Positions 13,276-28,235 of a stretch of 28,235 bases of DNA are shown one piece after another (within the stretch, counting starts at the first letter, position 1; each line of letters starts with the position of its first letter). Position numbers and translations under genes: made by a program. The stretch spans positions 1 to 28,235 of the IMG/VR virus record IMGVR_UViG_3300033142_001439; one strand, 5' to 3'. Source of the stretch: a virus. The notes under the pieces were generated by a model, which had not been told where the DNA came from, searched no databases, and worked only from the letters and a program-made list of their open reading frames with translations.

Positions 13276-13569
13276 TCAGCGATTGCGACAGTAAGTATCG
13301 TCCGGCATTTCGTAGCACAATTCATCGAGCATTGACTCGAGTGCTTCTTCAAGAATGGCACGTACCTCTGGCGCAAGGTTCGGAGTCGCCAAGTCCTTAC
13401 GCATTTCGCGGATCTCACTCTTGAGATCCAGCACATAGGACTTGGTGAACTCCGATACCGTCATGTACCGAGACTCATGGCCGGCGAAGGCAAGGCCGCC
13501 AATCAAAATGCCTGCCAAAGTGAGTTGAACCGGCCGGGGTATCAACTTCAATAGCTCTAGAAAATTCAT
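13276..13569 (-). CDS. Membrane protein at the end of the lysis operon
   Basis: A 97-residue protein: a short amphipathic start (MNFLELLKLIPRP), one membrane helix (about 15-30), then a charged helical domain of about 60 residues (KSYVLDLKSEIREMRKDLAT) that probably faces the periplasm or cytoplasm as a coiled coil. It could be a lysis accessory (antiholin or second holin). It overlaps the end of the outer spanin gene (ATGA). Function inferred only from place and topology. Confidence 0.5.
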   Translation of the reverse strand: MNFLELLKLIPRPVQLTLAGILIGGLAFAGHESRYMTVSEFTKSYVLDLKSEIREMRKDLATPNLAPEVRAILEEALESMLDELCYEMPDDTYCRNR

Positions 13570-26142: not shown

Positions 26143-26427
26143 TTACGTGCCGTTGGTAACAGTCACCGGCGTTGCATTGTCGGCGCTTGTAACCACAAGA
26201 ACATCGACCAATGGAGTACCACCGGCGCCAGATACAATCTCGATTCGATCATGCTGTCGCAGAAGCGGAGCATGAGCATCGAAATATGCAGAGGCGATAA
26301 TGGTAGCCAAAAGATCGGCTGACTCGTAAAACCATTTCGTTGTAGTGCCAATCTGCATACGGTTCATTTCCGTAGCATTGAAGGCACAGGGCAAGAACCG
26401 GAGCAAAATGTTGATAAAAGTCTTCAT
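26143..26427 (-). CDS. Small head-associated protein
   Basis: A 94-residue protein immediately after the capsid gene (TAA then ATG). It has a hydrophobic N-terminus (INILLRFLPCAF), then a beta-rich domain with WFYESADLLATIIASAYFD and a C-terminal VTSADNATPVTVTNGT. The pattern resembles small proteins found beside capsid genes in other phages, where decoration or head-completion is suspected. The N-terminal leader is like those of the capsid and scaffold proteins. Confidence 0.6.
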   Translation of the reverse strand: MKTFINILLRFLPCAFNATEMNRMQIGTTTKWFYESADLLATIIASAYFDAHAPLLRQHDRIEIVSGAGGTPLVDVLVVTSADNATPVTVTNGT

Positions 26428-27294
26428 TTAAGTCTCCGTCGAGCGGATTCGGTATCCGCCAATGTCGTCGATGAGAATAGCTTCCATCGACATAGAGCCT
26501 ACGGCCAAGTGCGCCTGCTCTTTGCCTTGCCAGGTGATGTCCATCTCAACATCTTGTCCAGACGCATGACCAACCGCAGACCTGTGATACGCGACGTTCT
26601 GACGAACGCCAGCAGGAATGGATAGTCCACTGAAACTGAAGATATTGAAAGAGAACCATTCCTTCGCACTAAACCCTACCCTCGGAAAAGGAAGGTCGGA
26701 TTCTGGAACGTAGTCCAGAGAGGCGAAGGCCGTTAGTCCCATGAGATTTGTCCAGCCTTGCGGAGAGACAGCAAGGAATCGCTGGCCATCGTCAGGAACA
26801 TCATTGTTCCCAAAGTCCTCATAAGCCTCTTCGATCTTAGGCTGAGTGAGAACACCGGTTGCCACGGTTTCTTTCGTGAACAAATCGGTTTGGGTTGTGA
26901 TGTCCTGATCAGATGCGCGACCCAGGGCGCCGGCGATTGACTGCGTTACCGCAGATCGCTCGTCATGCTCGATTTTCAATTCGTCCAACTTGTCGATGAA
27001 CTCACCGCCATAACGATCGACGAGAGTCACTTCAACATTGGTGTGAACGAGATTGAGAATCGGAACCTGACCGCCTCGGGTCTTGGTGCCGGCGATACCC
27101 TTGCCAATCTTCTGAAAGGTTGTGGACTTACCCACGACGTTTGTCTTCCGGCGAACAGTGTTGAGTAACTTGGAGCCCATTCGCTGGTAGGCGAGATGGA
27201 CTTCAGACTCAAACTGTTTCGTAAAGGCAACGTCAATGGAGTTATCTTGAATCGTCGGGAAGATCAGACCCAAGATGAACCGAAGTAAGTACAT
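26428..27294 (-). CDS. Major capsid protein
   Basis: A 288-residue protein identified by position (between scaffold and tail genes) and by its pattern: IQDNSIDVAFTKQFESEVHL, a Lys/Thr/Gly-rich loop (KSTTFQKIGKGIAGTKTRGG), PILNLVHTNVEVTLVDRYGG, and a C-terminal GYRIRSTET. It fits podoviral HK97-fold shell proteins. The ORF extends to a TTG at 27306, but that codon overlaps the GGAG ribosome site, so the ATG at 27294 (six bases after GGAG) is the true start. The resulting N-terminus MYLLRFILGLIFP is strikingly hydrophobic. Confidence 0.85.
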   Translation of the reverse strand: MYLLRFILGLIFPTIQDNSIDVAFTKQFESEVHLAYQRMGSKLLNTVRRKTNVVGKSTTFQKIGKGIAGTKTRGGQVPILNLVHTNVEVTLVDRYGGEFIDKLDELKIEHDERSAVTQSIAGALGRASDQDITTQTDLFTKETVATGVLTQPKIEEAYEDFGNNDVPDDGQRFLAVSPQGWTNLMGLTAFASLDYVPESDLPFPRVGFSAKEWFSFNIFSFSGLSIPAGVRQNVAYHRSAVGHASGQDVEMDITWQGKEQAHLAVGSMSMEAILIDDIGGYRIRSTET

Positions 27295-27371
27295 CGAATT
27301 CTCCAAGTAGATTGAGGTTTACCGTTTCAGGTTATCTCTACTTGCAGCCTTGATCGGTTCTGCCGGAAGGT

Positions 27372-27411
27372 ATCCGGGCCGAGGCAGTTTGTAGCGGCCT
27401 TCGACCCGGAT
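27372..27411 (-). promoter_or_regulatory. Strong hairpin in the capsid gene leader
   Basis: ATCCGGGTCGAAGGC and GCCTCGGCCCGGAT pair over 14 positions with one G-T and one bulged A, around an 11-base loop. It begins 11 bases after the scaffold stop and lies about 80 bases before the capsid ATG. No T run follows, so a stability or processing role (for example RNase III) fits better than termination. Confidence 0.5.
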
Positions 27412-27422
27412 AATAAAACGAT

Positions 27423-28235
27423 TTACTTGCCGGCGTAAAGCCTTGCATAACCATCGGTAACTTTTTTGATGAACGCAGGATCCTTCTGCTGCCAGTATCG
27501 CTTGTCTTCCTGCATCGTACGAAGCTCTTCCAGAGTAAGAGCGTCAGGCGAAGCGCCGCCTTCGAAGTCGCTCGGGCCGCTTGATTTCATTAGCGTTTCT
27601 AACGCTTCAACCTGGACGGCAGAGCTCAACAAAGGGTTGATAGCCGCGAACTGCTCGTCGCTCAACTTTGATTCAAGCCAGCTATGAACGCGCAACATCC
27701 GGTCTTGTCCGTGATCTCCAAGCTTCTCGATTTCGGCCGCAACATCCGGCATTGCCGCAAGTTCGATGCCGACGTATTCGTTCAAGGCTTTGTCGACCAA
27801 CTCCTGCGACATCCCGTTTTCTTTAGCGAAACCAAAAAACCAACTAATGAGCGGATCATCCTTCGATAGATCAAGCTCAACATTTTCAGGGATCTTCAGG
27901 TCTTCCGAAAGGTTCACCGTATATTCTTCTGGTGCGCCGGCTTTCATTTCGGCAAGAATCTCTTCTTTGATTACGTCGGTTTTCTCGCGGAACTTGCCCT
28001 CGAGCTCGTTGTAAGCTTTGCCAAGGATCTCGGTTCGTGGTGCCTTTAAGTCTTGATTCCAAAACTTTTCGGCCAGCCAGTCTGGTCGACCATCGGGATC
28101 TGTGTCTCCGCCCTTATCACCTTCACCGTCCTTGTCACCTTCGCCTTCGCCTCCCTTATCACCTTCACCGCCCTTGTCACCTTCGCCGCCGCCGTCTTCG
28201 CGCGGAATGAATAGCCATAATAGCCAGAGTAAATA
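27423..28235 (-). CDS. Scaffolding (capsid assembly) protein, start outside window
   Basis: At least 270 codons, open to the right edge. Acidic and helical, with a Gly/Glu/Asp/Lys linker near the N-terminus, then DWLAEKFWNQDLKAPRTEIL and a C-terminal helical part (WQQKDPAFIKKVTDGYARLY). Size and position before the capsid gene match T7 gp9 (307 residues). The first visible residues, YLLWLLWLFIPRED, are hydrophobic and probably begin just after the start codon off the edge. An internal ATG at 27947 is not the start, because the frame is clearly coding before it. Confidence 0.75.
   Translation of the reverse strand, partial: YLLWLLWLFIPREDGGGEGDKGGEGDKGGEGEGDKDGEGDKGGDTDPDGRPDWLAEKFWNQDLKAPRTEILGKAYNELEGKFREKTDVIKEEILAEMKAGAPEEYTVNLSEDLKIPENVELDLSKDDPLISWFFGFAKENGMSQELVDKALNEYVGIELAAMPDVAAEIEKLGDHGQDRMLRVHSWLESKLSDEQFAAINPLLSSAVQVEALETLMKSSGPSDFEGGASPDALTLEELRTMQEDKRYWQQKDPAFIKKVTDGYARLYAGK
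28107..28187 (-). repeat. In-frame degenerate repeat encoding GEGDKG units
   Basis: About five imperfect 12-18 base units encode repeats of Gly-Glu-Gly-Asp-Lys-Gly within the scaffold gene. The result is a flexible charged linker between the hydrophobic N-terminus and the helical body. Such tracts can change length by slippage. Confidence 0.65.

Follow-up and report, generated by a model that had tools for sequence, protein, structure and literature searches.

In a lineage of small podoviruses, several unrelated virion proteins carry a short leader, probably helical, that sits directly before their ancestral initiator methionine and is kept there by selection at the level of the peptide. The leader came to light in the window, i.e., the whole stretch of DNA that was analyzed, a linear viral record of 28 kb (28,235 nucleotides) whose late genes lie on the minus strand and encode scaffold, capsid, a small head protein, gp11-like and gp12-like tail proteins, a gp14-like protein and two large internal virion proteins. 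It comprises 11–16 hydrophobic residues, mostly with one to three arginines or lysines among them, and closes with a proline. A preliminary description of this DNA had noticed a common N-terminal leader on three head genes; we confirm this observation, and the carriers are more numerous than first thought (Table 1 gives the features of the three head genes). The label "T7-like" that had been attached to the phage suits its morphogenesis genes, but none of the genes of the window was seen to encode an RNA or DNA polymerase.

Table 1. Genes for scaffold, capsid and small head protein in the window, with leaders and ribosome binding sites.
Feature	Position	Strand	Remarks
Scaffold (capsid assembly) gene	27423..28235	-	5' end off window edge; Pfam PF05396, E 2.5e-07
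Scaffold leader, visible part YLLWLLWLFIP	28203..28235	-	start MK two codons off window edge; full start at L001:4054
Scaffold linker between leader and body, low-complexity acidic Gly (REDGGGEGDK...)	28098..28202	-	
Major capsid protein gene, leader and body	26428..27294	-	PF19821, E 2.6e-50; phrog_3437 from residue 17; PDB 9EG4 chain A
Capsid leader MYLLRFILGLIFP	27256..27294	-	ATG at 27294
Shine-Dalgarno GGAG of capsid leader start	27301..27304	-	
Small head protein gene, probable decoration protein	26143..26427	-	phrog_18004 from residue 15, which is model position 2
Small head protein leader MKTFINILLRFLP	26389..26427	-	ATG at 26427
Shine-Dalgarno GGAG of small head protein leader start	26434..26437	-	

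The capsid reading frame, when called mechanically, opens at a TTG (27306) upstream of the ATG of the leader. Clade loci covering this region have a Shine-Dalgarno sequence, GGAG or a near variant (AGGAG, GGGGA), at the same place, and in three relatives (L013, L014, L016) a stop codon stands directly before the leader ATG, so that the capsid start cannot lie farther upstream. Initiation at the ancestral position is excluded as well because the window capsid has lost the methionine that most relatives have there; it has threonine at this position (FP-TIQDN), and its next methionine is residue 39. In the small head proteins, an invariant cysteine replaces the ancestral methionine after the leader proline (LPC; window 26380–26388, residues 14–16) in 14 of 14 aligned clade sequences, which makes a shorter start impossible. 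The full scaffold start, MKYLLWLLWLFIP, with GAGG upstream, is seen in an overlapping contig, L001, that shares 100% identity with the window in scaffold and capsid and 99–100% in the head protein. Both the corrected capsid start and the off-edge scaffold start of the preliminary description were therefore right. The small head protein is likely, but not proven, to be a capsid decoration protein. Two points lead to this assignment: PDB 9EG4, which provides the best capsid match, also contains an orf16 to which the small head protein is weakly similar (E 0.45), and capsid and orf16 chains are equal in number in that entry (seven of each). Fold searches with this protein returned nothing significant from the PDB and solely uncharacterised or unnamed viral proteins from viral models.

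A capsid search of viral contigs retrieved 80 loci. When clade loci in which the gene start is present are tallied, scaffold, capsid and small head protein bear the leader in all of the approximately 20 viral contigs with a close relative of the window capsid. The more distant relatives tested, sister contigs included, have it on none of the three. Capsid loci with 82–100% identity that contain the capsid start possess the leader, and those with 58% identity or less start directly at MANTID, MADNTI or similar. Outgroup capsids begin with a methionine matching the residue right after the leader proline, and the outgroup small head proteins, which start with MAY, MAF, MAL or MPL, begin at the residue aligned with the position after this proline; outgroup scaffold N-termini are acidic or proline-rich. 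In a tree calculated for the capsid body, from which the leader was excluded, the 14 rows with leader fall on one side of a single branch (support 100/100), and two leaderless sequences, L022 and L023, adjoin the leader clade. The preliminary description had held that homologues lacking the leader would speak against it; all those tested outside the clade do lack it and all those inside have it, a distribution that indicates a clade-specific gain and not a miscalled start. The simplest history is that all three genes acquired it together in the ancestor of the clade. A scan of genome contigs with the capsid turned up 11 loci; none of them has the leader, so that no host was found. Methylophilales phage MEP301 was rejected as a carrier: its tblastn match begins at residue 4, a stop codon lies upstream and the annotated proteins start without leader. 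As a side observation, a gene in the terminase/portal interval (L001:1449–2024) is without Pfam or PHROG match, and in MEP301 this position is occupied by a putative acetyltransferase.

Leader sequences are very different from protein to protein in one genome, and those of the scaffolds also differ strongly from each other (e.g., MKYLLWLLWLFIP vs. MNHLRDALSYFLP) despite scaffold bodies that are about 70% identical. Replacements in the capsid leader are mostly hydrophobic for hydrophobic, with a strongly conserved arginine, and in the head protein the stretch RFLPCA is strongly conserved, LPC being invariant and FLPCA nearly so. In averaged hydrophobicity, polar positions recur every four residues back from the proline, and the family means for capsid, scaffold and head protein have their period maximum at 80–100 degrees per residue, as a helix with a narrow polar stripe would; the hydrophobic moments of single leaders exceed those of permuted sequences by only a modest margin (mean z 0.1 to 1.5). 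AlphaFold2 places a helix at residues 2–11 of the capsid and at residues 2–10 of the head protein, both with low confidence (local pLDDT about 54 and about 67, respectively), so that a helix is likely, though not firmly established; the capsid model, with a mean pLDDT of 58.8, was not used for contacts. Of 51 distinct leaders, 49 carry a net positive charge. A lipid-binding discriminant, devised for longer helices, exceeds the cut-off for 44 of the 51 and for 1 of 13 outgroup N-termini; the seven leaders below it belong to scaffolds and capsids. A Sec or lipoprotein signal was considered and rejected: there is no A-x-A, the leaders end in F/L/I/V/M-P, and LPC of the head protein is not a lipobox. 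A linker between leader and body is clear in the scaffold only, where it alternates within the clade between acidic glycine repeats and proline/alanine-rich repeats, so that disorder is kept and sequence is not; the leaders of capsid and fibre family join the body directly.

The same N-terminal element occurs on proteins that are unrelated to each other, namely scaffold, capsid, small head protein, a fibre family, a gp14-like protein and two proteins of unknown function. A protein of the GP4 fibre I (gp80) family, which matches PDB 8JOU chain a and is labelled fibre protein by Pfam, has it in two clade genomes (G002, G009) and two contigs (L099, L100). In three of these four the leader is joined exactly before MAEFST, and G009 has phenylalanine for the methionine; the clade junction reads ...LFFP-MAEF, whereas 22 outgroup homologues start MAEMSN without leader and the more distant L126 has the plain start MAALTD. 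The gp14-like protein of three near-identical contigs (L002, L003, L020), counted as one case, carries MFDRFLVWVLSRFIP before the ancestral methionine position, and that of other clade members starts MDGG, MADGG or similar, without leader; by comparison of these starts, the leader is a gain within the clade, in one lineage only. In peptide sequence, this leader of the gp14-like protein (L002:9127–9714) is similar to the one on the head protein of its genome; in DNA, the likeness is not above that of shuffles. A 168-aa protein of G002 and G009 (L083:3470–3976 and L092:12226–12732, both minus strand), without Pfam or PHROG match and present in these two contigs of the collection only, has the scaffold-like leader MKFLLKFLWLFLP or MKFFMKLLWLFVP, and a 1332-aa protein of G002 starts MRLRDFLRKVLSLFLP. 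No leaderless homologue was found for either family, so that addition of the leader is here deduced from the pattern. No leader is present on portal, terminase, gp11-like and gp12-like proteins or on the large internal ones. A predicted membrane protein of 97 aa near the lysis genes (window 13276–13569, minus strand) begins MNFLELLKLIP-RPVQ, leader-like, and runs into a hydrophobic segment; it is probably unrelated.

That the leaders are hydrophobic N-termini arisen by chance, or miscalled starts, is hardly credible. Signal peptides and holins also open with hydrophobic residues, but the leader motif, defined as a hydrophobic stretch with at least one polar residue and a closing proline within 26 residues, is present in 42 of 225 distinct predicted clade genes vs. 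2 of 367 outgroup genes, a ratio to be taken as descriptive because the motif was defined after the leaders had been seen and the genes were called with a home-made script. Forty of the 42 belong to the named carrier families; the two outgroup genes are not head genes and resemble a membrane protein and a secreted protein. The lost ancestral methionine, the upstream stop codons and the conserved Shine-Dalgarno sequence speak against miscalled starts, and scans of 2.9 million viral contigs provide independent support against a chance origin. A strict capsid-type pattern occurs in eight stretches, seven of which lie in clade contigs; the eighth, in L230, is out of frame and plainly due to chance. 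The head-type pattern is found in four contigs, all with clade identifiers, and the scaffold-type pattern in clade scaffolds, the gene for the 168-aa protein, ordinary signal peptides, holins, short ORFs and one unrelated small protein. A leader-like protein of 99 aa in L150, a replication-type contig, was discarded as unrelated. Quite improbable, too, is an idle peptide that is a side effect of some element in the DNA or RNA, or of tuned translation initiation. A strong Shine-Dalgarno sequence does precede the leader, and codons for hydrophobic residues are rich in pyrimidines. However, among 16 clade capsids synonymous change is as large in the leader (pS 0.604) as in the body (pS 0.620) and the character of the residues is kept (leader pN 0.221, pN/pS 0.37; body pN 0.093), a substitution pattern which argues that selection on the peptide, and not on the DNA, maintains the leader. 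Moreover, leader DNA is mostly unlike across one genome. A DNA cassette common to all leaders was accordingly rejected, as likeness beyond that of shuffles is clear only for scaffold and 168-aa gene in G009, whose leaders are close in DNA as well; in G002, fibre and 1332-aa gene show less of it.

As to function, we tentatively prefer the reading that the helix docks at a membrane and so collects the virion proteins where assembly takes place. The leader would act as a transplantable localisation tag, hydrophobic to amphipathic, net-positive, 11–16 residues long and ended by proline. Being too short to span the bilayer, it may form a helix that docks in-plane on the cytoplasmic face of the inner membrane and thus bring scaffold, capsid, small head protein and fibre proteins to one site, where their local concentration would rise; the flexible acidic or proline-rich linker of the scaffold may let the body work with the tag docked. 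An in-plane membrane anchor is favoured by carriers that would lie on both sides of the shell, by helical periodicity, by drifting sequence with kept character, by net-positive charge and by helices too short to span the membrane. Proheads of T4 and SPN3US assemble on the inner membrane (PMC9958956, PMC9026906). The portal without leader counts against membrane docking, and so do the modest hydrophobic moments, the seven leaders below the lipid-binding cut-off and the conservation of the capsid arginine and of RFLPCA in the head protein, which a pure membrane anchor does not require. Nearly as likely is that the leader serves as a protein–protein co-assembly tag and that the leaders bundle together or bind one partner before or during procapsid assembly. 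Several different proteins share the leader, with just this arginine and RFLPCA conserved, scaffold, capsid and gp14-like proteins meet inside the procapsid, and the hydrophobic helix of the scaffold followed by a disordered linker has the architecture of an encapsulation peptide (PMC12339742). Against such a tag stand the strong divergence of the leaders within genome and family, the lack of any partner found, and the leaders on proteins expected outside, i.e., the fibre family and the probable decoration protein. With carriers likely both exterior and interior, it is hard to see all of them bound at one site on a single face of the shell, and the fibre-family and other carriers beyond the head trio weaken a reading in which scaffold simply binds shell. 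It is unlikely that the leader is a propeptide removed at maturation after having served assembly. A cut would restore the old N-terminus, since in capsid and fibre families the boundary is exactly at the ancestral methionine, and T4 propeptides are cut off likewise (PMC9026906); yet several starts are without the ancestral methionine, the residue after the proline varies (M, T, R, C, L, F, K), there is no A-x-A signal-peptidase site, and comparison of 45 proteins with Pfam gave no match to a prohead protease family, nor was one among the 25 most-matched PHROG families listed.

Capsid and scaffold proteins of phages are as a rule regarded as soluble and freely diffusing, and our literature search of open-licence papers found no leader of this kind on them. 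The broader picture would be that a lineage of small podoviruses addresses its virion proteins by one transplantable N-terminal helix, much like a postal code: unrelated structural proteins carry it independently, so that the particle takes shape in a single spot, most likely on the inner membrane, in a general targeting system; we hold the case for this picture to be evenly balanced. If true, a phage can evolve subcellular targeting of its assembly through some 13 codons added to the front of one gene after another, and targeting of phage structural proteins would be general, something otherwise not known outside the head interiors of T4-like phages. The common tag makes the assembly site of small podoviruses directly testable, and it could also direct other proteins to the same site.

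The closest structural relative is the capsid of PDB 9EG4, which belongs to the same family (window capsid body vs. chain A, E 3.6e-32); in contrast to the window capsid, its residue 10 aligns with residue 25, which leaves no room for a leader. The scaffold body of the window matches the T7 capsid assembly family. With microcompartment encapsulation peptides, the leader has in common a short hydrophobic helix on different proteins; the disordered linker of those peptides has a clear counterpart in the scaffold only (PMC12339742). There is, however, no microcompartment here and the shell protein itself is tagged, and the likeness is one of architecture, with no sequence relation claimed. The N-terminal amphipathic helix of the MreB type is likewise short, net-positive and too short to span the membrane (PMC3163269), but so far we have not found it described on phage capsid or scaffold proteins or on several unrelated proteins of one assembly, and for the leaders lipid docking is predicted. 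In logic, though neither in sequence nor in the set of carriers, the leader resembles the capsid targeting sequence of T4, a transplantable element for which the first 10 residues of IPIII suffice (PMC9026906). Like T4 targeting sequences and propeptides, it is short, is shared by several head proteins and precedes their functional part at the N-terminus. Unlike them, it is strongly hydrophobic, closed by proline and borne by capsid, probable decoration and fibre-family proteins; it also has no LIE-type cleavage site or matched prohead protease, and the phage is a small podovirus. The proposal that head proteins are gathered at the inner membrane agrees with assembly in T4 and SPN3US (PMC9958956, PMC9026906). 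In T4, the portal nucleates assembly and makes the membrane link together with gp40 and YidC, whereas here the portal is without leader and it is shell and scaffold that carry it.
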